DNA of 37,690 nucleotides, from NCBI GenBank assembly GCA_013003065.1, contig JABDLI010000103.1, positions 1 to 37,690 on the forward strand. Direction: 5' to 3'. The notes under the pieces were generated by a model. The model saw only the letters and a program-made list of their open reading frames with translations. It was not told where the DNA came from and did no database searches. Position numbers and translations under genes: made by a program. The DNA is from Phycisphaerales bacterium. GTDB taxonomy: Bacteria > Planctomycetota > Phycisphaerae > Phycisphaerales > SM1A02. Within the stretch, counting starts at the first letter, position 1, and every line of letters begins with the position of its first letter. Positions 12,885 through 25,111 of this stretch are shown in pieces.

Positions 12885-13958
12885 GTGCGACAAGAGTGGA
12901 TTCTGGGAGCTGTGCTGCTCGGGGCGACCGCGACGACCCATGCCGATCAAGTGCTCGTCTGCGGATGGAACACCAGCAACGTCGTTCGCTGCGACACCGA
13001 GACCGGTGCGTGCGAAGCGTTCGTCGGCACCGGCTCGGGCGGGCTGGCGAGCCCCCACAGCCTGGCGATCGGTCCGGACGGCAACCTCTACGTGACCAGC
13101 TTCTCGAACGGCCGCGTACTCCAGTACCGGCTCGAGAACGGCGGCTTCCTCGACACGTTCGTCCCGGCGGGCGCCGGCGGTCTCGGCGCGCCGACTGACG
13201 GGAACTTCGGCCCCGATGGCAACCTCTACGTGACGAGCTTCGCGACCGACTGCGTCCTCCGGTACGACGGCAAGACCGGCGATTTCATCGACGTGTTCGT
13301 CTCCAGCGGCAGCGGAGGTCTGCTCAACCCCGAGGCGCTCGACTTCGGCCCGGACGGTCATCTGTACGTCGTGAGCGGCAACAACCGCAACGTGCTTCGC
13401 TACGACGGCGTCACCGGTGCGTTTCTGGGTGTGTTCGTCCCGACGGGCAGCGGGGGCATCCTCGACCCGCACTTCATATGCTTCCACGAAAAGTTTCTCT
13501 ACCTCACCGCCTTCGGCAACAACAAGGTGGTGCGCTACGACGCCCGAACCGGGGTGTTCGTCGACGTCTTCATCCAGGACGATCCCGCGACGCCCGACAT
13601 CGACGAGAGCGGCGGGCTGGCGAGCGCGCACGGGCTCCGCTTCGGTCCGGACGGCAACCTGTACGTCGCCTCCTTCGGCAACCACCGCGTCCTCCGCTAC
13701 GACGGGGCGTCCGGAGATTTCATCGACGAGTTCATACCGGCGGGCAGCGGGATCACCGGCCCGATCGACATCCTCTTCCTTCCCCCGGAGTGCCCGGCGG
13801 ACCTGGACGGCTCGGGCGATGTGGGGTTCACGGATCTGCTCGCGGTCCTGGCGGCGTGGGGCCCTTGCGTCGGAGCCTGTCCGGCCGATCTCGACGAAAG
13901 TGGCGACGTCGGCTTCACCGACCTGCTCGCGGTGCTGGCGTCGTGGGGCCCCTGCTGA
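12885..13958 (+). CDS. Secreted NHL/Vgb-like beta-propeller with two dockerin-like repeats
   Basis: The 357-residue product starts with a Sec signal (MRQEWILGAVLLGATATTHA). It then has about six propeller repeats with the recurring pattern FGPDGNLYVTSF...VLRYDGKTGDFIDVFV. The C-terminus has two nearly identical calcium-loop repeats, each about 23 residues and ending in WGPC, separated by a short VGAC linker. The GTG at 12885 is supported by AGGGAGA six bases upstream. Enzymatic activity cannot be assigned; such propellers bind ligands or act as lyases (virginiamycin B lyase-like). It is a close paralogue of the gene at 14363. The tail presumably anchors or multimerises the protein at the cell surface; no cohesin partner is visible. 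Confidence 0.85.
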   Translation: MRQEWILGAVLLGATATTHADQVLVCGWNTSNVVRCDTETGACEAFVGTGSGGLASPHSLAIGPDGNLYVTSFSNGRVLQYRLENGGFLDTFVPAGAGGLGAPTDGNFGPDGNLYVTSFATDCVLRYDGKTGDFIDVFVSSGSGGLLNPEALDFGPDGHLYVVSGNNRNVLRYDGVTGAFLGVFVPTGSGGILDPHFICFHEKFLYLTAFGNNKVVRYDARTGVFVDVFIQDDPATPDIDESGGLASAHGLRFGPDGNLYVASFGNHRVLRYDGASGDFIDEFIPAGSGITGPIDILFLPPECPADLDGSGDVGFTDLLAVLAAWGPCVGACPADLDESGDVGFTDLLAVLASWGPC

Positions 13959-14142: not shown

Positions 14143-14362
14143 GCCCCCGCCCCCACCCCGACCGGCGGATCGATGCTTGGGCCCGACCCCGCCCGCCCCT
14201 CGGTCCGTCTGACGGCTCAGAATCGCATGGGCACGATCATTTCCGCCGTGGGCTTCGCCTAGGCTGAAGGTGGAGTCGCGCTACGCATCCAGGTCACGCG
14301 GTCGTCCCCCTATGAACCGGTGGCGACGTCGGCCGGGACGTGACCGCGGAGAAGACGCACCC

Positions 14363-15475
14363 ATGCTCACGACCACCCCCACGGTCCTCCCGACCGCGAT
14401 GATTTCGCTGCTGACAGCGGTCGCACCCACGCTCGCGGGCGGCGTCCTCCCCCCCGCCGACCACGACGAGATCTGGATCGGAGGCTGGCACTCGCACAAC
14501 GTCATCCGCATCGCCTGGAAAGACGCGGAGTTCCGCGGCGCCTTCGTCCCCAGCGGGGGCGGCGGGCTGAGCCGGGCGCACGACTTCTCGTTCGGGCCCG
14601 ACGGGCACTTCTACGTCGCCTCGTACGGCGACAGCACCGTCCGCCGCTACCACGGCGAGACGGGGAGCTTCATCGACGTGTTCGTCCCCCGCGGCGACGG
14701 GCTCCTCAACTCGCACACGACCTACTGGAACGGCGACGGCATGCTGCTCGTCAGCTCCGAAGGCGGCGACCGCGTGAATCGGTACGACGCCGACGGGATG
14801 TTTCTCGGCACCTTCGTCGCCCCCGGCGAGGCCGGCCTCGACGGGCCGGAGTACATCATTTCAGGACCGGACGGCTTTCTGTACCTGGCCGCCCAATCGG
14901 ACCAGGTGCTCAAGCTCGACCCGAACGCCGGCGGCGTCGTCGAGCGTTTCGTCTGGGACGACCCCGACATCCCGGGCGACGAGACCGGCGGGCTGAGCTG
15001 GGCGCACGGCATCGCCTTCGGCCCCGACGGCAATCTCTACGTCGCCTCGAGCAACAACAACCGCATCCTCCGCTACGACGGCGTGACGGGTGACTTCATC
15101 GACGCGTTCGTCTCCGGATCGGGCGCGCCCGAGTTCCCCATCGGCATCGCGTTCGGACCGGACGGCAACCTGTACGTTTGCGCGTTCGCCACGAGCCGCC
15201 TGCTGCGGTACAGCGGCAAGACCGGCGCGCCGCTCGGCACCGTCGCCAACCTCCCATCGCTGGGTCTGACCGGCCCGCTCAACCTGCACTTCTTCCGCGG
15301 CCCGGCGTGTTTCCCCGATCTCGACGGATCGGACGATGTCGGCTTCGCCGACCTCCTCGCCGTGATCGCGGAGTGGGGACCCTGCGCCGGCTGTCCGGAA
15401 GATCTGGATGGATCGGGCGACGTCGGGTTCAGCGATCTGCTGAAGGTGCTGGCGCGATGGGGGCCGTGCGGGTAG
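14363..15475 (+). CDS. Secreted NHL-like beta-propeller with two dockerin-like repeats (paralogue)
   Basis: The 370-residue product has a hydrophobic N-terminus that may act as a signal peptide. Propeller repeats follow (FGPDGHFYVASYGDSTVRRY, FGPDGNLYVASSNNNRIL, FGPDGNLYVCAFATSRLL), then two tail repeats (DLDGSDDVGFADLLAVIAEW and DLDGSGDVGFSDLLKVLARW). The segment GGLSWAHGIAFGPDGNLY matches GGLASAHGLRFGPDGNLY of the 12885 gene, so the two arose by tandem duplication. The ATG at 14363 follows GGAGAAG at 14348-14354; an upstream in-frame start at 14270 would add an arginine-rich tail before the signal. A terminator separates the copies, so they are probably transcribed independently. Confidence 0.85.
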   Translation: MLTTTPTVLPTAMISLLTAVAPTLAGGVLPPADHDEIWIGGWHSHNVIRIAWKDAEFRGAFVPSGGGGLSRAHDFSFGPDGHFYVASYGDSTVRRYHGETGSFIDVFVPRGDGLLNSHTTYWNGDGMLLVSSEGGDRVNRYDADGMFLGTFVAPGEAGLDGPEYIISGPDGFLYLAAQSDQVLKLDPNAGGVVERFVWDDPDIPGDETGGLSWAHGIAFGPDGNLYVASSNNNRILRYDGVTGDFIDAFVSGSGAPEFPIGIAFGPDGNLYVCAFATSRLLRYSGKTGAPLGTVANLPSLGLTGPLNLHFFRGPACFPDLDGSDDVGFADLLAVIAEWGPCAGCPEDLDGSGDVGFSDLLKVLARWGPCG

Positions 15476-15547: not shown

Positions 15548-17365
15548 TCAATCCCGACGATCGTGCCGCACCAACGCCGCGTACTTTCCTCCGAGCGCCA
15601 ACAGCTCCCCGTGCGGCCCCTGCTCCACGATTCGCCCGCGTTCGATGAACACGATGCGATCCGCCGCGCGAATCGTCGACAGCCGGTGCGCGATCACGAA
15701 CGCGATGCGTCCGGCGAGGACCGTTTCGATGCCCCGCTGGATGAGCCGTTCGGTTTCCGTGTCGACGGAGCTGGTCGCCTCGTCCAGGATGAAGATCTGC
15801 GGATCGGCGATCAACGCGCGGGCGAGCGACAGCAGCTGACGCTGGCCGGTCGACACGCGGCCTCCGCCCTCGCCCACGTCCGCGTCATAACCACCTTCCA
15901 TTCCCACGATGAACTCGTGCGCGCCGACCGCCCGGGCGGCCGCCGCGATCTCGGCGTCCGTCGCATCCAGACGGCCGTACCGGATGTTCTCGCGAATGGT
16001 CCCGCTGAAGAGGTGCGGGGTCTGGAGCACGACGCCCAGATTGGACTGCAGCCACCCGAGCGCGCGCTCGCGGTAATCGAGACCGTTGATGAGAATCGCA
16101 CCCTCGGTCGGCTCGTAGAAGCGGCTGACGAGGCTCACGATCGTGCTCTTGCCGCCGCCCGTCGGACCGACCAGCGCGATCGTCTCGCCCGCCTGCACCG
16201 ACAGGTTGAACCGCTCGAGCACGCGTTCACCGCCGGTGTATCGGAAACCCACGTCGGCGAACTCGATCGTCTCGATCCGGGCGTCGAGACCGTCGATCGC
16301 GACGCTGGAGTCGTCGGCGGCGTCGATGGCCGCCCGCACGTGCGCCGCGTCGGCAATCTCCGGCTCGGTGTCGAGCAGCTCCTGCACCCGCTCCGCCGCC
16401 GCCTGCGCGCTCTGAAGCTCGGTGAATCGACGCGCCAGCTCCTGGATCGGCATGTACAGGAAGGCCGCATACTGCATGAATGCCACGAGCGTGCCGAGGG
16501 TCAGCGTGCCGTCGCCGTCGCCGACCATGAGACCGCCCCGCCACAGCGACAGCCCGACCCCCGCGCTGCCGAGCGTCACGACGAGCGGCAGGTACACGGC
16601 GGACTGGAGCGCGTTCCGAATCGAGTAGTCCTCCATCGATCGCGAGCGGACCTGGAATTCGGCGAGGTTCCGCTGCTCCCGAACGAGCGTCTTGGTCGTC
16701 CGCACGCCCATCAGGCCCTCGTTGAACGCCGCCGTGATCTCGGAGTTGGTCCGACGCACGTGACGCGAGCTCTCCAGCAACCGGCGTTGGAAGACCTGGC
16801 TCACGATCGCCAGCGGCGGCACGATGAGCATGACGACGAGCGCGAGCGGCCACGACAGCCACAGCATGCCGGCAAGGATGCCCGCCACGAGGCTCGTTCC
16901 CCACACGAGGTCCAGCATGAACCACGGCATGAGCGAGGAGAGCTTACTGCAATCGCTCGTCAGCCGCGTGACCAGCCAGCCGACCGGCCGCACGTCGAAA
17001 TACGAGAACGACAACGCCTGCAGCCGCGCGAACCCGGCCGTGCGCAAGTCACGGGCGACCCCCGTCGCCGTCTGCCCGGCGAGCACGATGAACACCCACA
17101 CGCAGATGCACAACGCGAACACGAGCGTCACGTAGCCCGCCACCCAGCCCCACAGTGCGGTGGTCACGCCGCGGGCCGTCGCCTCGTCGATGAGCCGACC
17201 GGTGACGAGCGGCGTTGCCGCATCGATGCCCGCCAGCACGAATCCGGACACGGCCAGCCCGATGAGCTGGCGACGGTACGGCCGGGCGTGCTCCGCGATC
17301 CGGCGCCACAACGCCCAGTCCACCTGGGCGGCGGGACGATCGTCTTCGATGTACGGCTCAGACAT
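15548..17365 (-). CDS. ABC exporter half-transporter, subunit with degenerate signature (heterodimer partner B)
   Basis: The 605-residue protein has a six-helix exporter membrane domain (about 30-310) fused to an ATPase domain. Walker A is GPTGGGKS at 400-407, the Q-loop is VLQTP, Walker B is FILDE with catalytic Glu529, and the H-loop is IAHR with His560. The ABC signature reads VSTGQ rather than LSGGQ (Ser505, Thr506). In heterodimeric exporters of the BmrCD or TM287/288 kind, such an altered signature belongs to the degenerate ATP site. The ATG at 17365 overlaps the stop of the partner gene by 8 bp, implying coupled translation. Substrate is unknown; drug or lipid export is typical. It ends at the hexamer hairpin shared with the convergent propeller gene. 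Confidence 0.93.
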   Translation of the reverse strand: MSEPYIEDDRPAAQVDWALWRRIAEHARPYRRQLIGLAVSGFVLAGIDAATPLVTGRLIDEATARGVTTALWGWVAGYVTLVFALCICVWVFIVLAGQTATGVARDLRTAGFARLQALSFSYFDVRPVGWLVTRLTSDCSKLSSLMPWFMLDLVWGTSLVAGILAGMLWLSWPLALVVMLIVPPLAIVSQVFQRRLLESSRHVRRTNSEITAAFNEGLMGVRTTKTLVREQRNLAEFQVRSRSMEDYSIRNALQSAVYLPLVVTLGSAGVGLSLWRGGLMVGDGDGTLTLGTLVAFMQYAAFLYMPIQELARRFTELQSAQAAAERVQELLDTEPEIADAAHVRAAIDAADDSSVAIDGLDARIETIEFADVGFRYTGGERVLERFNLSVQAGETIALVGPTGGGKSTIVSLVSRFYEPTEGAILINGLDYRERALGWLQSNLGVVLQTPHLFSGTIRENIRYGRLDATDAEIAAAARAVGAHEFIVGMEGGYDADVGEGGGRVSTGQRQLLSLARALIADPQIFILDEATSSVDTETERLIQRGIETVLAGRIAFVIAHRLSTIRAADRIVFIERGRIVEQGPHGELLALGGKYAALVRHDRRD

Positions 17366-19166
17366 GGCCCATGACCTCCGGCGATTCCCCTTCGATCTGT
17401 TCGATCCGCCAGCGACGGTGGTACGCCCCGCCGGCGGCGAGGAGCTGCTCGTGCGTCCCCGACTCGACGAGTCGTCCGTCCTCGAGCACGAGAATGCGAT
17501 CCGCGTGCATCAACGTCGAAAGCCGGTGGGCGATGACGATCGTCGTGTGTCGCCCCCGCCGCTCCTGCAACGCGCCGAGGATCCGCATCTCCGTCTCGGT
17601 GTCGACGGCGCTCAACGCATCGTCCAGGACGAGCACGGCCGGATCCTGCAAGAGCGCCCGGGCAAGCGCCACGCGTTGCCGCTGACCGCCCGACAGCGTC
17701 ACGCCGCGTTCGCCCACCTTGGTGTCGTAGCCGTTGTCGAAGGCGAGGATCGACTCGTGCACGCACGCCACGGTCGTGGCCTCGATCATCACCTCTTCGG
17801 CCACCTGCGGGTGGACGAGCGTCACGTTCTCCCGCAGCGACTTCGAATAGAGGAAAGGCTCCTGGAGCACCGACGCGATCTGCCCGCGGACGAATGTCCG
17901 ATCCAGATCGGTCAGCTCGATGCCGTCGATTCGAATCGAGCCCGTGTCGTAGTCGTACAGCCGCAGCAGCAGGTTCACGACCGTCGTCTTGCCGCAACCG
18001 GAGGGGCCGGTGAGCGCGATGGTCTCACCCGGCTCGGCCCTGAAGGACAAGTCGCGGAGCACGGGGCCCGAGCCGTCGTGCGCGAACCCGACGTTCTCGA
18101 ACTCGATCGCGCCCGACAGCGACGGCACGGGCGTCTCCGCCGCCGGCGTCGATTCGACTGGTTCATCGAGAATCTCGCGAATGCGGTCGATGGCCACGAT
18201 CGCCTTGCCCACTTCGGTGAGGATGCGCCCCATCATCCGGACCGGCCAGATGAACAGCGACACGATCGTGAGGAAGTAGTAGTACGCCCCGACCGTCAGC
18301 TCACCGGTCGCCAGCCAGTACGCGCCTCCGCCGACCACGAGCGCCTTCTGACAGAAGCACAGGAGATCCGAGATCGACCAGAACCGCGCGAGCAGCACGT
18401 ACAACCGATAGTCGAGCGTCTGGTGCGCCTCGTTGACCGTCGCGAGCTTCTCCTCCTCGAATTGCTGGCGTGCGAACGCGCGGACCACCCGGATCCCGGT
18501 GAGGTTCTCCTGCACGGTGTTGGTCAATCGCCCTTCCGCTTCGTCGACGGCCTTGAAGGTCGCGCGGATCCGGCCGAAGTAGATGAGCGAGAACACCACG
18601 ATCACCGGGATGAGCAGCAGCGACACGACGGCCATCCGCACGTCGATCGCGAACATGAACGGCAGCGGCAGCAGCAAGAGCGTGACTGCGCGGCCGATCT
18701 CGACCAGCTGGGTGGCGAGGAAGGTCCGAAACGTCTCGACGTCCGACGAACAGCGCTGGATGAGATCGCCCGTCCGCGCGGTGTCGTGGTACCGGCACGG
18801 AAGCTGCTGAAGATGGTCGTACAGACGGTCCCGCAGGCGACGCGTGATCGCCTCGCTCGCCTGCGCGGAATACCGGCCGCGGAAGTAGGTGAAGACGCCG
18901 GCCAGACCGGTCAGCCCCACGAGCACGAGCGCGGGCCACCACAGGTTGGCGCGTACGAACGACGCACCGCCGAGCCACTCGAGACCCGTCGCCACCAGCG
19001 GCGTCGGCGTGTCGCGGGTGGCGATCGCGCCGTCGATCGCGATCTGCGGGATGACCGGGGCGACCGTCAGCAACGCCGAGGCCAGGAGCAACGACCCCAT
19101 CGCCGCGGCGTACCGCCACCGCTCTCCGGCCATGAGATTCCAGATGGTTTGAAGGCGAGCGATCAT
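17358..19166 (-). CDS. ABC exporter half-transporter, subunit with Asp in place of the catalytic Glu (heterodimer partner A)
   Basis: The 602-residue protein has an exporter membrane domain (about 15-320) and an ATPase domain. Walker A is GPSGCGKT at 387-394, the Q-loop is VLQEP, the signature is LSGGQ at 491-495, and the H-loop is IAHR with His547. Walker B is VLVLDD: Asp516 stands where Glu normally activates water. This loss matches the altered signature of the partner at 15548, so both defects would fall in one composite ATP site. The ATG at 19166 is preferred over the longer frame because AGGAGAG lies about six bases upstream and MIARLQTIW is a normal exporter N-terminus. It is the first exporter gene after the attenuator at 19226-19284 and probably depends on read-through of it. 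Confidence 0.93.
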   Translation of the reverse strand: MIARLQTIWNLMAGERWRYAAAMGSLLLASALLTVAPVIPQIAIDGAIATRDTPTPLVATGLEWLGGASFVRANLWWPALVLVGLTGLAGVFTYFRGRYSAQASEAITRRLRDRLYDHLQQLPCRYHDTARTGDLIQRCSSDVETFRTFLATQLVEIGRAVTLLLLPLPFMFAIDVRMAVVSLLLIPVIVVFSLIYFGRIRATFKAVDEAEGRLTNTVQENLTGIRVVRAFARQQFEEEKLATVNEAHQTLDYRLYVLLARFWSISDLLCFCQKALVVGGGAYWLATGELTVGAYYYFLTIVSLFIWPVRMMGRILTEVGKAIVAIDRIREILDEPVESTPAAETPVPSLSGAIEFENVGFAHDGSGPVLRDLSFRAEPGETIALTGPSGCGKTTVVNLLLRLYDYDTGSIRIDGIELTDLDRTFVRGQIASVLQEPFLYSKSLRENVTLVHPQVAEEVMIEATTVACVHESILAFDNGYDTKVGERGVTLSGGQRQRVALARALLQDPAVLVLDDALSAVDTETEMRILGALQERRGRHTTIVIAHRLSTLMHADRILVLEDGRLVESGTHEQLLAAGGAYHRRWRIEQIEGESPEVMGHV

Positions 19167-19225: not shown

Positions 19226-19284
19226 AAAAACCCGCTCGTTTGGAGCGGGTTCATCACGACGCAACGATCGAGATCACCCGCTCA
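19226..19284 (-). promoter_or_regulatory. Transcription attenuator: competing antiterminator and terminator hairpins
   Basis: Read on the minus strand, GAGCGGGT (19283-19276) is followed 25 nt later by AACCCGCTC (19251-19243), a 5-nt loop, and GAGCGGGTT (19237-19229) running into five T (19230-19226). The second and third segments make a perfect 9-bp terminator stem. The first and second can instead pair over 8 bp, which excludes the terminator. The first segment overlaps the leader stop codon TGA (19284-19282). A ribosome finishing the leader would cover it and favour termination, while a ribosome stalled earlier would leave it free and allow read-through into the exporter genes 60 bp downstream. 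The mechanism is inferred; the complementarity is directly visible. Confidence 0.82.
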
Positions 19285-19365
19285 CAGGACATCCGTCCCG
19301 ACCGCGCACACACCGGCCGGAGGGTTGCTCCGGTCGGACGCGGTGATGAGGTTCATGGTGAACAT
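19282..19365 (-). CDS. 27-residue leader peptide of the ABC exporter operon
   Basis: The ORF has 27 codons plus TGA, starting at an ATG preceded by GGAG with a 7-nt gap. The product begins MFTMNLITAS, includes Arg12, the pair Pro15-Pro16 and a single Cys20, and ends TDVL. It has no membrane segment and no run of one amino acid, so amino-acid starvation sensing of the trp or his kind is not obvious. Codons 12-17 fall in a hairpin (CCGGAG/CTCCGG, 19317-19333, extended by three more pairs past one mismatch) that could pause polymerase so the ribosome keeps pace. Pro-Pro is a known slow site for ribosomes. An in-frame ATG at 19356 is a second possible start. The ORF most likely serves by being translated rather than as a product. 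Confidence 0.7.
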   Translation of the reverse strand: MFTMNLITASDRSNPPAGVCAVGTDVL

Positions 19366-19383
19366 GGGTGAACTCCGAGAAGA

Positions 19384-19412
19384 CTTATAACCCGGTCGAT
19401 GCGTCCGGGCAA
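19384..19412 (-). promoter_or_regulatory. Sigma-70-type promoter of the leader/ABC operon
   Basis: On the minus strand TTGCCC (19412-19407) and TATAAG (19389-19384) are exactly 17 bp apart. Transcription would start near 19377, giving an unusually short leader of about 12 nt that still contains the GGAG ribosome binding site of the leader peptide. The AT-rich -10 stands out in the surrounding GC-rich sequence. Confidence 0.7.
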
Positions 19413-19507
19413 GGATCGAGCCGGAGACGCGAGACGCACGGCCCGGTGCGGGCCGGCCGATCCGACCCCGTCACCGCAGGCTTCCGGGTACGATCACGCG
19501 TTGCAAC

Positions 19508-19525
19508 TCCCCCTGCTCGGGGGGA
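19508..19525 (+). promoter_or_regulatory. Hairpin in the upstream region of the third ABC exporter
   Basis: TCCCCC and GGGGGA flank a 6-nt loop about 37 bp before the ATG at 19562. A weak -10-like TACGAT lies at 19489-19494, so the hairpin would be near the 5' end of the transcript. It has no T tract and is not a terminator. A role in RNA stability or translation control is possible but not shown. Confidence 0.35.
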
Positions 19526-19561
19526 CTTACGAGACCGTTCGCGTCACCGGCACCCTCCGTC

Positions 19562-21400
19562 ATGCACGACTTCCTCACCTTCGCCCGCCAGACGATCAAG
19601 GACCGCGCGATGCTCGTCGCCGCGATGGTCTTCGCGATTCTCTCGGCCGCGGGGATGGGGGTGGGGCTCCTGAGCATGGTGCCCGCGATCAAGCTGATCG
19701 TGAACGACGGGGAGACCGGCGGGCTCCCGGACCTCGCCCGCCGCTTCAACGCGGATGCGACGACGGTGCTGGGCGTGCCGATCACGATTCCCGCGTGGCT
19801 CATCGACCTCCTTCCCGACGGCCGTTTCGGCGGGGTGGTCCTGATCGTGGCCGTGATCGCCCTGCTCACCGTGCTCGGGGCCGCCTTCAACTTCCTCCAC
19901 CAGTATCTGAGCCTGACCGTCGCGACCCACACCGCGGCCCACGCACGCGAGCGTGTGTTCCGGACGGCGATGTTCATGCCGCTCATCAAGGTGACGCAGC
20001 GGGGCGCGTCGGAGTTCGTCGCCCGCATCCTCCAGGATTCGGTGGCCGTGCAACGCGGGCTGATCGCCCTCATGAGCAAGGCCGTCGCGCAGAGCACCCA
20101 GGCGGTCGTGCTCTTTCTCGTTGCGGTGTTCACCGGCCGCTCGCTGACCATCGCCGCGTTGGTGATCCTCCCGCTGCTGGCGATCGTCATTCGCAAGATC
20201 GGCAAACGCATCCGCCGGGCGCACCGCGGCGCCCTCGAGCGGCAGGAGGATCTGCTGCGGGTCGCCACGGAGTCGGTGCAGGGGCTCCGCGCGGTGAAGG
20301 CCAACACCCGCGAGGCCGCCACCATTCGCTCCTTCGCCGCGATCAATCGCGACGTCGTGCGTGAGGAGCTGCGCGCCCGCATCGCCCGCGCGGCGTCGAG
20401 CCCCTTCATGGAGACGATTGCCGTCTTCGCCGTCGGCGCCCTGGTCATCCTCGCTGCCCGCGCCATCATCGGGGGCACGCTCACGATCGAGCGGTTCGTC
20501 ATCGCGCTCGGGGCGTTGGCGATTGCCGGGAGCAAGCTCAAGGTCCTCGCCGGACTCGTGAACGAGATGCAGGCCGCCTCGGCCCCCGCGCGGCGGTTGA
20601 TGGAGATCATGGACGAAGCCAGCGAGGAGACCGGCGCTCCCCGCCCCCCGCTCGCCCGTCACGCGACCTCGATCCGATTCGAGGACGTCGGGCTGACCTA
20701 CCCGGGCGCCACCGAGCCCGCGCTCAGCGCGGTCACGCTGGCCATCGGGCACGGAGAGCGGATCGCCATCGTCGGCCCCAACGGCTGCGGCAAGACGACG
20801 CTGCTCAGCCTGCTGCCCCGCCTTCTGGTACCGGACACCGGGCGGATCCTCATCGACGACGTCGACATCGCGACGATCTCGCTCGCGAGCCTGCGGGGGC
20901 AGATCGGGGTCGTCACGCAAGAGACGTTCCTGTTCCGCGGCACGATCGCCGAGAACATCGGGTTCGGGGTGGAGTCGGCCACCGACGAGCAGATCCGCGC
21001 CGCCGCGCGTCGCGCGCACGCGGACGAGTTCGTCCGTGCGATTCCCGGCGGGTACGACGCCACGATCGCCGAACGCGGCGCCTCGCTCTCCGGGGGCCAG
21101 CGGCAACGCCTGGCGATCGCCCGCGCGATCCTGCGGGAGCCGGCGATCCTCATCCTCGACGAGGCGACGAGTCAGATCGACGCCGAGTCGGAGACGCACA
21201 TTGCCGCCGCCATCGCCGAGTTCGGCTCCGGCCGCACCGTCCTCGTCATCGCGCACCGCCTCGCCACCGTGCTCGACGCCGATCGCATCGTCGTCATGGA
21301 CCGGGGCCGGATCGTCGACGAGGGAACGCACGACGCGTTGCTCGGACGCTGCCCGCTTTACGGCCGTCTCTCGCAGAATCAGCTCATCGCCGCGGGTTGA
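19562..21400 (+). CDS. ABC exporter (MsbA/lipid A exporter-like), single-chain half-transporter
   Basis: The 612-residue protein has an exporter membrane domain (about 15-340) and an ATPase domain with all consensus residues. Walker A is GPNGCGKT at 405-412, the Q-loop is VTQE, the signature is LSGGQ at 509-513, Walker B is LILDE with Glu534, and the H-loop is IAHR with His565. It can therefore work as a homodimer, unlike the divergent pair. MsbA-type proteins flip lipid A-like or other lipids, but the substrate here is not determined. The ATG at 19562 is the first in the frame; no strong ribosome binding site is seen. Its 3' end overlaps the convergent bat-operon gene by 22 bp. It shares the divergent intergenic region with the attenuated exporter operon. 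Confidence 0.92.
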   Translation: MHDFLTFARQTIKDRAMLVAAMVFAILSAAGMGVGLLSMVPAIKLIVNDGETGGLPDLARRFNADATTVLGVPITIPAWLIDLLPDGRFGGVVLIVAVIALLTVLGAAFNFLHQYLSLTVATHTAAHARERVFRTAMFMPLIKVTQRGASEFVARILQDSVAVQRGLIALMSKAVAQSTQAVVLFLVAVFTGRSLTIAALVILPLLAIVIRKIGKRIRRAHRGALERQEDLLRVATESVQGLRAVKANTREAATIRSFAAINRDVVREELRARIARAASSPFMETIAVFAVGALVILAARAIIGGTLTIERFVIALGALAIAGSKLKVLAGLVNEMQAASAPARRLMEIMDEASEETGAPRPPLARHATSIRFEDVGLTYPGATEPALSAVTLAIGHGERIAIVGPNGCGKTTLLSLLPRLLVPDTGRILIDDVDIATISLASLRGQIGVVTQETFLFRGTIAENIGFGVESATDEQIRAAARRAHADEFVRAIPGGYDATIAERGASLSGGQRQRLAIARAILREPAILILDEATSQIDAESETHIAAAIAEFGSGRTVLVIAHRLATVLDADRIVVMDRGRIVDEGTHDALLGRCPLYGRLSQNQLIAAG

Positions 21401-22209
21401 GACCCGACGCGGGCGATCTGGTCCGAGCGGAGCCACCCCGTCTTGCCGTCCGGCAGCTCGACCTGCAACCAGACGCCACGCTCCTCCACGATCTCCAGCT
21501 CGACGCCCGCGTGGAGCGGCTCCTGGAACTGCGGCTCGTAACCTTCCCCGTTGCCCTTGCGAACGACGACGTCGTCGACGACGACCACACCGGCCGGCCG
21601 CGCGCCCCAACCCGCCGCGTCGGCGGCGAGCGATCCGCCCGTGAGAAGTGCGATCGCGGCCGCGATCCCCGCCGTGATTCGCCACCGGCCGTCGGGCCGG
21701 AACCGATCGACCCCGAGCAGCAACCAGAATGCGGTGTAGGCCACGATGCACACGACCAGACGGGTCGTTCGCGTCGTGCCGTGGTGCCAGGCCAGAACCG
21801 CTTGTCGCAACGCCCGCCCCCCCGACGGGGCAATCTGGTTCCGTCGCAGCGACCGGGCGTGGGCCAGATTGTGGGTGATGCGGGCCGCCCCCGGCTCCAG
21901 CTCGAGCCCGCGGCGGTAATGCGCGATCGCCCGCCCGAGATCGTCCCGCTGGAGCAGGGCATTCGCGAGGTTGTAGTGGATCCAGCCGGTCTCGACGCCC
22001 GCGTCGAGCAGCAGCTGGAACCGGGCCGCCGCCTCGTCGAACGCACGACGCGCGGCCACGGGATCCGATCGACGCGTGCGGACCCCCTGGTCGTAGGCCG
22101 CCAGCCCCTCCGCCAGAACCTGGCCGCGTTGGGACTGATCGAGTCCCATCACCGCCGGCGTCAGGCAGGCGACCACCAGCGCGACGAACCGCCATCGGCC
22201 TCCGCTCAT
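21379..22209 (-). CDS. batE: BatE-like TPR membrane protein with SH3-type C-terminal domain
   Basis: The 276-residue product has an N-terminal hydrophobic signal, TPR-like helices (about 30-115, including WIHYNLANALLQRDDLGRAI), two membrane spans (about 140-195), and a C-terminal SH3b-like domain (WLQVELPDGKTGWLRSDQIA). TPR plus SH3 matches BatE of Bacteroides and Leptospira aerotolerance operons. It is the last gene of the operon. The ATG at 22209 overlaps the batD stop in an ATGA, so translation is probably coupled. The 3' end overlaps the ABC exporter on the other strand. It probably assists assembly of the BatA/BatB complex in the membrane; its direct role is unknown even in model systems. 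Confidence 0.78.
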   Translation of the reverse strand: MSGGRWRFVALVVACLTPAVMGLDQSQRGQVLAEGLAAYDQGVRTRRSDPVAARRAFDEAAARFQLLLDAGVETGWIHYNLANALLQRDDLGRAIAHYRRGLELEPGAARITHNLAHARSLRRNQIAPSGGRALRQAVLAWHHGTTRTTRLVVCIVAYTAFWLLLGVDRFRPDGRWRITAGIAAAIALLTGGSLAADAAGWGARPAGVVVVDDVVVRKGNGEGYEPQFQEPLHAGVELEIVEERGVWLQVELPDGKTGWLRSDQIARVGSQPAAMS

Positions 22210-24059
22210 CGCCACCGCGTCGCCTCCAGCCGCTGGACGCACGCGGCAGCGCGATCGACGAGCGACGCCGCGGCGGCCGGGCCGTCTCCGGCGTACCGGA
22301 TACGCTCGCACGCCACCAGGCACGCCTCGACTTCCCGCACCAGGTCGGGCTCGATGCCCCGACGCTCGAGGTGAGCAACGACGTCGGCCGTGGTCAGGGC
22401 CCCCGGGGGAGCGTTGCAACGGTCACCGACATAGCCGGAGACCGCGGTCGCGGCGAGGGCGGCGGCTTCACCGTCGGCGACGCGTCGCGCGTCGGCGATC
22501 CGGCGGCGGGCGGTGCGGGTCGCATTGCGACTGCGGGCGAACCCGGTGTCGTCGCGCAATCGCCGGCGGCGACGCTCGGCGAACGCGACGGCGGTGAACG
22601 CAAGCGGCGGAATGCCGAAGGCCACGACCGCGATCGCGGGGGTCAGACGCAGCGGCCCGCCGGCGAGCACGCGGGCGGCGTCGGCCTCGTTGGCGAGGAG
22701 TCCCCCGGAGAGCAGGGTGAGCTCGGTGCGCGCGGGATCGCCCGGCGGCTCGCCCCCGATCAAGTCCTCGGCCGCGACGACGTTGGCCGACGACACCGAA
22801 ATCGGAATGGGCGTCGTCTCGACGACCACGTACGTCTCGCGTTGCGGATCGAAGTACGCGAACGGGATCGGTGGAATCTCCGCAACGTCCGCCCGCTTTG
22901 CCCGCAGCGTGTCGGTAAATGTCTTCGTGCTGCCGTTCACCACGCCGGCGGGCGGATCGCCCGAGACGCGGAAGTCGCCGGTCAGGGACTCGACCGCGTC
23001 GAGCGGCGGAGGGGCCAGCACCTCCAACGGGCTTCCGACCGAAGAGCGATCGACGATCGTCAGGCTCAGCGTGATGGGATCGCCGACGGCGACCTGCACG
23101 GGCTTGGCCGACGCCGTGACGCTGAATCGCCCGACCGCTCCCGACCAGAATGACGGCCGATTCGCGACCGGGGGAGTGCGCACGACGATGGGGTCCGTGG
23201 CGGCCGGCTCGACGACCATCCGCGCGTCGGCGATCTGCAGATCGCCCCGGGACAACAGGCTCCGGCTGCGTTTGAGCCGCTTCGGGTACCGCATGATGAG
23301 CGTCACCGGCTCCAGCTCGAAGGGACCCGCGCGGTCCGGCCAGACGGTCACGCCGAATTCGTACTCGTAGTACGTCGTCTCCTCGCCGGTCGAGGGTTCG
23401 GGGCGGCTGACGGTCCGCCCCCGCACCGCCCGCGACCGCCGGGGGCCGATCAGATCCTGGATCGGCGCCGCGAACGGCCCGAGCGCCGAGCGGTCGAGGT
23501 CGAGCAGCGACCACATGGTCTCGCTGTTGAGGGGACCGTTCGTCAGACGATCGGTGTAGGGGCGGATCCAGAGCTTCAACCGTGCGGCCACCGGCTCGCC
23601 GAGGTAGATCGATTCCCGGGTGACCTCCACCTCGGCGATCAGGTCATCGCCGCCGTCGGGTTCGACCGCGCGGAGGAGGAGCGGGTCGGTTCGCAGCGTC
23701 GCCCCCCCGACCTCCACGGGAATCGGTGGAATCTCCAGCCGCCCCGCCCGTCGCGCGACGACCGCGTACCCGAGCGCCACTTCCTGACGCGTGGTCCGGC
23801 CGTTCACGCTGGTCATCTGCCGGCTCGTCGACGGTGCGCCGAGCACCTCGAGGCCGTCGAGCGGCGGCCACCGGGGCGACTCGAAGACGCCGGCGGTGCC
23901 GACCGAGATCGTCACACGGAAGGGCACGCCGACGTAGACCTCGCGTGACTCGATCGAGATCGAAACCTCGGCCGCATCCGCGGCCGGCGTGAGCGTCGAT
24001 ACGCCGAGCAGAAGCGTGGCGACGATCGCGAGCGGGGATGGCAGTCGTCGAGCCGTCAT
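22206..24059 (-). CDS. batD: BatD (oxygen tolerance) protein
   Basis: The 617-residue protein has a signal peptide and repeated immunoglobulin-like domains. The first contains EVYVGVPFRVTISV and GLEVLGAPSTSRQM, and later ones contain ESIYLGEPVAARLKLW and KPVQVAVGDPITLSLTI, which is the BatD pattern. A membrane span near 475-495 and an arginine-rich cytoplasmic helical tail follow. The bulk would lie in the periplasm. The ATG at 24059 shares one base with the preceding TGA (TGATG); a GTG one codon earlier would give a GTGA overlap, and either start is possible. In Bacteroides fragilis Bat proteins raise survival under oxygen, but the biochemical role is unclear. The 27243 lipoprotein has a shorter, similar Ig-like part. 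Confidence 0.86.
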   Translation of the reverse strand: MTARRLPSPLAIVATLLLGVSTLTPAADAAEVSISIESREVYVGVPFRVTISVGTAGVFESPRWPPLDGLEVLGAPSTSRQMTSVNGRTTRQEVALGYAVVARRAGRLEIPPIPVEVGGATLRTDPLLLRAVEPDGGDDLIAEVEVTRESIYLGEPVAARLKLWIRPYTDRLTNGPLNSETMWSLLDLDRSALGPFAAPIQDLIGPRRSRAVRGRTVSRPEPSTGEETTYYEYEFGVTVWPDRAGPFELEPVTLIMRYPKRLKRSRSLLSRGDLQIADARMVVEPAATDPIVVRTPPVANRPSFWSGAVGRFSVTASAKPVQVAVGDPITLSLTIVDRSSVGSPLEVLAPPPLDAVESLTGDFRVSGDPPAGVVNGSTKTFTDTLRAKRADVAEIPPIPFAYFDPQRETYVVVETTPIPISVSSANVVAAEDLIGGEPPGDPARTELTLLSGGLLANEADAARVLAGGPLRLTPAIAVVAFGIPPLAFTAVAFAERRRRRLRDDTGFARSRNATRTARRRIADARRVADGEAAALAATAVSGYVGDRCNAPPGALTTADVVAHLERRGIEPDLVREVEACLVACERIRYAGDGPAAAASLVDRAAACVQRLEATRWR

Positions 24060-25111
24060 CACCAGTCCTTCTCCACGGGCGGACGCCGCGCCGCGGCGCG
24101 TCGGGCCTGCTCCTGCTGTCGTTGCCGCTCGCGGTCACGCACGGCCTGGAGCAGACGCTCCGCCTCGGCGCGTGTCATCGTTTCCCCCCCACGCTCGCCG
24201 TCGGCATCGTCGCGCTCCTCCGCGCCCGCTGCCTCGGATGCCGACGGTTCGGTCTCCGCGCCGGGCGACGGCGGCGGCGGGTCGGTCTCGGATGATTCGG
24301 ACGACTCGGATGACTCGGTTGACTCGGGCTCTGGCTCCTCCTCCGGCGGCGCCGCCGACTGCGACTCCGACTCGCCGGACGCGCCCGGAGTGGGAGGTGA
24401 CTCGGATGAATCCGAACCGTCCGGGGGCGGTGATTGCGAATTGGGGTCGGACTGCTCACCGGCGCCGTTCGAGTCGGAGGGCGGTTGCGACTCCGACTCC
24501 TCCCCATCGGACTCACCATCCTGCGGCGACGACTCGCTCGGGGGGTTCATCGCCTCGAGTTGACTGATCAGCCGCTGGGTCAGCTCCGCGTTGGCGCGGG
24601 CATCGAGGTCGTCGGGATCGTGCGCGATCGCTTCGCGATAGTGGTCGAGCGCCTCCGTGAGTTCCGTGCGGGCGACGTCCAGATCGCCGGCGGCGGCCGC
24701 CCCGGACTCGGGTGACTGCAGCGCGCGGGCGTACGCGTTGGTGCCCAGGTTGTACGCCGATCGGGCCCGGAGCGCCGGATCGCCCGAGAGATCCAGAGCG
24801 TCCTGAAAGAGCTCGGCCGCGCGATCGTGGTCGCCGAGTCGATAGGCCGCGACGCCCATGTTGTAGGGAATCTGCGGCGTCATCGGGACCGCGGGCCGAA
24901 CGGCCTCGTACGCCTCGAGGGCCTCGGCGAAGGAGCCGGCGTCCATCGCGGCGTTGGCCTGACGCAGCGTCGCGGTGACCTGGGCGCGCGTCGGACCGAC
25001 GTCGGCGTCGGCGACCGGCGGTGGGCCCGGCGGCGACACGGCGCTCGAGGCGAGCGGCGTGTTCACGGCGAGGAGGAGCGCGATCGTCGGTATCGCCGGT
25101 CGTCCTTTCAT
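24059..25111 (-). CDS. batC: BatC-like TPR protein with long acidic Ser/Pro/Glu-rich linker
   Basis: The product of 350 residues has a signal peptide and two or three TPR units (about 45-190, including PYNMGVAAYRLGDHDRAAEL and AYNLGTNAYARALQSP). A low-complexity acidic stretch of about 110 residues rich in Ser, Glu, Pro and Asp follows. The C-terminal helix is charged and Arg/Gln-rich and ends PPVEKDW. BatC proteins are periplasmic TPR proteins of the same operon. The linker is probably disordered and may span the periplasm or bind metal or cations. The ATG at 25111 overlaps the BatB stop as ATGA. Confidence 0.8.
   Translation of the reverse strand: MKGRPAIPTIALLLAVNTPLASSAVSPPGPPPVADADVGPTRAQVTATLRQANAAMDAGSFAEALEAYEAVRPAVPMTPQIPYNMGVAAYRLGDHDRAAELFQDALDLSGDPALRARSAYNLGTNAYARALQSPESGAAAAGDLDVARTELTEALDHYREAIAHDPDDLDARANAELTQRLISQLEAMNPPSESSPQDGESDGEESESQPPSDSNGAGEQSDPNSQSPPPDGSDSSESPPTPGASGESESQSAAPPEEEPEPESTESSESSESSETDPPPPSPGAETEPSASEAAGAEERDDADGERGGETMTRAEAERLLQAVRDRERQRQQEQARRAAARRPPVEKDW

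Follow-up and report, generated by a model that had tools for sequence, protein, structure and literature searches.

A Probable Ribosome-Mediated Transcription Attenuator Ahead of a Heterodimeric ABC Exporter Operon in Phycisphaerae

Introduction

A ribosome-mediated transcription attenuator in all probability controls a heterodimeric ABC exporter operon in the planctomycete DNA described here. The window, that is, the whole stretch of 37,690 nt analyzed (contig JABDLI010000103.1 of the Phycisphaerales assembly GCA_013003065.1), carries on its minus strand a leader that is very likely an attenuator, which would make it a switch of known type, new in its lineage and in the gene family that it serves. 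A sequence-only reading of the window had proposed this interpretation, and it is supported by the recurrence of the leader layout before orthologous exporters and by the heterodimer-type pair of exporter halves. The planctomycete leader rests on cross-genome comparison and not on one sequence. Confidence in an attenuator is high after this check because the recurrence found with an automatic rule needs no hand-picking.

The Leader Region and Its Parts

The leader arrangement in the window is real, and its parts are as follows.

19384..19412, minus strand: promoter-like pair TTGCCC (19412-19407) and TATAAG (19389-19384), 17 nt apart, read in the sequence
19373..19376, minus strand: Shine-Dalgarno-like GGAG, 7 nt 5' of the leader ATG, read in the sequence
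19282..19365, minus strand: leader ORF MFTMNLITASDRSNPPAGVCAVGTDVL, ATG at 19365, 27 codons plus a TGA stop at 19284-19282
19360..19368, minus strand: possible anti-antiterminator, spanning the leader start and paired with arm A when ribosome-free RNA is folded to minimum energy
19317..19333, minus strand: internal hairpin CCGGAG-CAACC-CTCCGG within the leader ORF
19276..19283, minus strand: arm A GAGCGGGT, which overlaps the leader stop and pairs with arm B in the A..B fold
19253..19274, minus strand: inner stem ATC-t-CGAT / GTCG-t-GAT, which extends the A:B antiterminator in the A..B segment fold
19243..19251, minus strand: arm B AACCCGCTC (also given as ACCCGCTC), partner of A in the antiterminator or of C in the terminator
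19226..19237, minus strand: arm C GAGCGGG (19237-19231) and T-run TTTTT (19230-19226), terminator
17358..19166, minus strand: exporter half 1, ABC_membrane and ABC_tran, Walker B LDD, signature LSGGQ
15548..17365, minus strand: exporter half 2, ABC_membrane and ABC_tran, Walker B LDE, signature VSTGQ

The promoter, the GGAG site, the 27-codon ORF, and arms A, B, and C with five T residues were all found where the sequence-only reading had placed them and in the same order. An intrinsic terminator, CCCGCTC-CAAAC-GAGCGGG-TTTTT, lies between the leader and the exporter gene, whose ATG is at 19166, 59 nt from the end of the T-run. A simple promoter and terminator scan reported 0 promoters and 0 terminators over the leader region; it is blind to both elements because TATAAG is without the required last T and because the T-run is partly stem-paired. 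The leader and terminator sit between their own promoter and the exporter, and the gene upstream is divergent, so there is no adjacent same-strand gene end for the terminator to serve.

Folding of the 161-nt leader RNA showed it to be more stable than its shuffles (z = -3.25, with 0 of 200 equally stable). The A:B pairing of the window was matched by 1.5% of 200 dinucleotide shuffles, and per locus this pairing is modest on its own (mean shuffle p 0.046). Only 0.5% of 200 shuffles matched the promoter pair of the window; across 22 loci the best match to a promoter does not as a rule exceed chance (mean p 0.28), with a TTGC-type -35 paired with a TA-type -10 in 14 of the 22. A Shine-Dalgarno-like sequence precedes most leaders across relatives. 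When 251 genomes of the order were searched for the exact trio GAGCGGG..CCCGCTC..GAGCGGGTTTT, 1 genome contained it, in the window only. As for the pause-type hairpin proposed at 19317-19333, it is present, but it does not exceed chance, either in the window (p = 0.22) or overall across the loci. A pause hairpin is usual in trp-type leaders and is not required of the attenuator class.

The Exporter and Its Neighbors

The two exporter genes overlap (17358-19166 and 15548-17365), and together their products have the features of a heterodimeric type IV ABC exporter, with the Glu after Walker B replaced in one half and a non-canonical signature in the other. LDD and LSGGQ in one half with LDE and VSTGQ in its partner is the heterodimer pattern with one degenerate ATP site, which bears out the heterodimeric exporter of the sequence-only reading. 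Among relatives, the LDD of half 1 was picked up by a text pattern in 27 of the 37 loci tried, the remaining 10 having no half-1 match. Among chains of known structure, TM_0288 and a chain pair that we take to be TmrAB match both halves.

A third half-transporter (ABC_membrane and ABC_tran) lies at 19562-21400 on the plus strand, divergent from the leader region, and its promoter must therefore share 19412-19562. The neighboring ORFs at 12885-13955 (plus strand), 14270-15472 (plus strand), and 22209-24062 (minus strand) comprise two NHL-repeat proteins and one BatD-like protein.

Recurrence Before Orthologous Exporters

Orthologues were searched with half 1, and the upstream-region set was taken at an identity of at least 45%. 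Keeping one row per distinct 200-nt upstream end left 82 of 106 rows, to which an automatic rule was applied: a Shine-Dalgarno sequence and an ATG, 10-40 codons, and a stop placed -4 to +30 nt relative to where a B-pairing arm begins. A terminator-like site was found in 18 of the 82 distinct upstream regions, and 16 of these 18 pass the rule, compared with 0.30 expected from shuffles upstream of the same terminators; L021 and L037 fail. The alignment of upstream regions that the sequence-only reading had proposed as a check therefore yields what it predicted, a leader ORF ending at the B-pairing arm.

By reading, the layout was recognized at 20 sites: the window, L003, L005, L014, L032, L034, L035, L036, L037, L042, L043, L065, L066, L067, L068, L073, L074, L077, L082, and L083. 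L032 (Planctomycetota) and L034 (Phycisphaerales) belong to genomes of the window's order and cover the same DNA as L004 and L006, respectively. Of the 20 sites, L036, L073, and L082 stand outside the automatic set, their terminators having no proper T-run; the T-run is absent in L036 and L073, and broken in L065-L067, L077, L082, and L083. In this hand-picked set, 18 of 20 pass the rule (L036 and L037 fail) vs 0.09 expected. L021 is a weaker instance of the layout (weak arm A, score 14) and was omitted from the tests of A:B shuffling, covariation, A..B folding, ribosome position, stop position, the hand-picked rule, and the pause hairpin, and L066 was omitted from the arm and T-run alignment. 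L121, found late, is included in the control-site rule, codon-composition, and promoter tests and stands outside the main folding tests. A stop-position product of 10^-11.5 was obtained with start codons picked by eye, and the automatic-rule count is relied on instead.

Another reading is a constitutive, leaky terminator, which would just lower exporter expression without any signal, with arm A present by chance or derived from tandem terminators. In these genomes many genes end in terminators of the GAGCGGG type, tandem terminators occur at several loci, and the patAB terminator is described as holding expression low (PMC4319486). However, the Shine-Dalgarno sequence with its ORF, the stop, and arm A occur jointly far above shuffles. 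Control terminators in the examined loci pass the rule in 7 of 63 cases, namely three matches at the second terminators of L003 and L074, two at L121, and two at one L126 site, so that L126 alone passes without being an exporter leader. A signal-free terminator is for these reasons very improbable.

Two terminator-like hairpins stand in tandem between leader and exporter in L003, L014, L021, L034, L074, and L121. L126 (reverse strand, about 230-430) has a similar arrangement ahead of a prs-like gene, with a Shine-Dalgarno sequence and ORF, an arm for pairing, and a terminator; it is known from one site in one genome and is maybe due to chance.

A sequence-only RNA model, trained on 19 loci with the window included, recovers the leader site in its own genome with E 1.2e-4, followed by three weak sites from E 0.9. 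Across 201 genomes of the order, searched with stricter filters that missed the window itself, the model gave 28 matches, 9 of which are exporter leaders (L106-L111, L116, L121, and L122). L121 was recovered in this way without the protein; it precedes a half-1 start with 55% identity to L083 over 29 residues. Ten of the other 19 matches (L112, L113, L118, L119, L123, L126, L127, L129, L132, and L133) were read, and all except L126 were rejected as ordinary terminators or chance; the other nine are L114, L115, L117, L120, L124, L125, L128, L130, and L131.

The leader layout is missing in most of the orthologues examined: it is present in 21 of 93 tree rows, and 64 of the 82 upstream regions are without a terminator-like site. 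Orthologues without the leader include L033 (labelled Myxococcales), the Planctomycetia-like L097-L100, and L142; L096 is cut by its contig end. On a quick tree of the 93 exporter rows, the leader label needs 9 changes vs 19.1 for shuffled labels, and 0 of 500 shuffles were as low. As judged from these sequences, this distribution would fit an old, often lost element, with near-copies helping the clustering. L036 is labelled Acidobacteria and L037 Eisenbacteria, and because both stand on small contigs (11.5 kb and 21 kb, respectively), binning errors are possible.

Coding Character of the Leader

Leader translation would be expected from the Shine-Dalgarno sequence, the ATG, the ORF, and the codon periodicity seen in these sequences. 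The leaders have a coding-like composition: three-base periodicity is strong in 326 codons from 18 leaders (chi-square 115, p 1.8e-22), and the A-B spacers, with a smaller codon sample, give chi-square 15.8 and p 0.015. No peptide conservation was seen across the loci, the leaders varying in length from 14 to 36 residues and in sequence, and close leader pairs differ by 22 nonsynonymous vs 2 synonymous codon changes (five overlapping comparisons summed, with no formal test). The codon-pattern test put forward in the sequence-only reading is thus split, since periodicity speaks for coding, whereas the peptide is not conserved and its changes are mostly nonsynonymous. Arm A occurs in all three reading frames across the loci and is therefore kept as RNA.

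These observations bear on the idea that the product of the short ORF is itself functional, perhaps as a peptide that the pump exports, and that the terminator merely closes its gene. A short ORF with its own promoter does adjoin the exporter; against this stand the variable length and sequence of the peptides and the excess of nonsynonymous changes, and arm A at the stop would be left unaccounted for. We give this idea almost no credence.

Alternatively, the leader could resemble that of trp and respond to how much of a single amino acid, or of a few, is available, with the pump exporting a related compound. The geometry is equal to that of amino-acid attenuators. In 18 leaders compared with 23 non-exporter gene starts, ATN codons make up 13% vs 7% (OR 2.0) and AAN codons 13% vs 6% (OR 2.6), and the leader of L034 has Trp-Trp. 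However, this codon enrichment shrank once exporter starts, homologous sequences in which an earlier background had been rich, were removed from the background. In addition, neither an amino-acid run nor a single residue is shared among the leaders, and exporters are not biosynthesis genes. Control by amino-acid supply is quite unlikely. The ATN and AAN codons are those of Ile, Met, Asn, and Lys.

Competing Structures

Arm B can pair with either neighbor, as the sequence-only reading had it, since folding finds both A:B and B:C. The antiterminator and the terminator are mutually exclusive, have this arm in common, and the antiterminator could be masked by a ribosome. When the A..B segment is folded to minimum energy, A:B forms in 20 of 20 loci with 5-7 of the 7 core pairs, and in 19 of the 20, all but L036, this segment exceeds the terminator in stability. 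In the window, the A..B segment has -23.1 kcal/mol (z -5.2) and the terminator -16.3 kcal/mol. The pairing of arm A back to the leader is similar in many, though not all, loci.

Counted from where the arm A core begins, the leader stop lies at -4 to +12 in 15 of 20 rows and at +24 to +29 in the other 5. These five loci, L068, L073, L077, L082, and L083, have a second geometry, in which the leader encloses arm A and reaches its stop only 24-29 nt after that arm begins, and a terminating ribosome would therefore not cover A in them.

Covariation of the core pairs, which had been suggested as a test of the two competing stems, was not borne out: in 12 distinct rows, 72 of 84 pairs are standard, and 992 of 5000 permutations are as good. 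This lack of significance arises because the arms are too alike. Matched changes at two core positions are found in L065-L067 and in L068/L073.

Folding was also modeled with a ribosome at successive codons. For RNA made only as far as C, A:B is predicted to persist with P of at least 0.6 while the ribosome is at early or middle codons, except at codons 1-2 of L034 and codons 16-18 of L077. In 15 of 20 loci, A:B would be abolished by a ribosome in the last 2-7 codons, and in the five loci of the second geometry by one in the last 11-13 codons; this removal is a matter of geometry, as the model assigns 0 once A is covered. With the ribosome placed at codon 5 and full-length RNA at equilibrium, the terminator is predicted to win in 11 of 20 loci, including that of the window. 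With the terminator favored at equilibrium, the on state must come from folding order, that is, from A:B forming and holding before C is available. In ribosome-free RNA, the terminator is predicted to prevail at equilibrium in 16 of 20 loci, yet A:B would form before C in 17 of 20.

The two stems exclude each other regardless of the selector, and the A-B loop sequences vary in length, both of which would also suit a terminator controlled by a factor or ligand, in which a protein or small molecule selects A:B or B:C and translation of the ORF is incidental. Codon periodicity and ORFs ending at arm A nevertheless point to translation. Moreover, no family of Rfam 15 reached its gathering threshold, the only match being anti-hemB at 19 bits vs 49.5, and no conserved aptamer-like core is seen outside the arms. 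Such a selector is distinctly improbable.

Proposed Mechanism

In the ribosome-mediated attenuator, transcription would start just 5' of the short leader ORF. A ribosome that reaches the leader end would mask arm A, whereupon B would pair with C and transcription would stop before the exporter. If the ribosome is slow or stalls earlier, A would be free as B emerges, A:B and the inner stem would precede C, and read-through into the exporter would follow. Rather than one amino acid, the leader most likely gauges a general slowing of translation, such as ribosome-binding antibiotics would cause, because nearly any stall before the last codons would give the same result and because the peptides vary. 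We infer this signal, as we do the substrate exported, and by analogy with bmrCD the planctomycete leader may sense ribosome inhibitors.

A broader reading is offered tentatively, and we consider it less likely than not. It holds that an old attenuator is dedicated to one heterodimeric exporter family and has been kept through Phycisphaerae, perhaps also in Acidobacteria and Eisenbacteria, with the leader acting as a general gauge of ribosome speed in which only translation timing matters, so that the peptide is free to change.

Comparison with Known Systems

A separation of transcription from translation was once proposed for Planctomycetota. The attenuator predicts transcription-translation coupling in these bacteria and a pump that answers translation stress, and a gauge of ribosome speed, if true, implies that this coupling works in Planctomycetota. 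In the open-licence literature, no leader-peptide attenuator in Planctomycetota appears among the titles of the matches listed. One article reports that in Planctomycetes generally there are leader genes close to structural genes (PMC4833913).

Several known systems share features with the planctomycete leader. The msrD, mef/mel, vmlR, and ermB leaders are reported to answer ribosome-targeting drugs, but they control ABC-F proteins, methyltransferases, and other pumps in Gram-positive bacteria. Trp-type amino-acid attenuators agree with it in the order of the arms and in having the leader stop close to the first antiterminator arm, whereas the planctomycete leader is without a regulatory codon run and does not precede a biosynthesis operon.

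In the patAB attenuator of Streptococcus pneumoniae, too, a heterodimeric ABC exporter is preceded by a terminator for which alternative hairpins are predicted; the term 'leader peptide' is absent from the paper (PMC4319486). The ABC-leaders of Naville and Gautheret are likewise predicted attenuators before ABC operons, one of them a multidrug export operon in lactobacilli, and the main text has 0 occurrences of 'planctomyc' (PMC2965389). The authors argue for a repeated attraction of attenuators to ABC genes; here, by contrast, a single exporter family seems to have retained one.

Closest in logic to the planctomycete leader is bmrB-bmrCD of Bacillus subtilis (PMC4191407), which likewise places a leader ORF, an antiterminator, and a terminator before a heterodimeric ABC multidrug exporter, with read-through on slowed leader translation and a predicted anti-antiterminator, both of which would also apply here. 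The two also differ, in that the terminator of the Bacillus system lies inside the bmrB coding region and here follows the leader stop, and in that the Bacillus antiterminator is said to be weaker than its terminator, whereas the A..B segment here is the stronger in 19 of 20 loci. A drug response is on record for bmrCD only; in sequence the two are related through the exporter family, and the likeness of the planctomycete leader to bmrB is one of logic.
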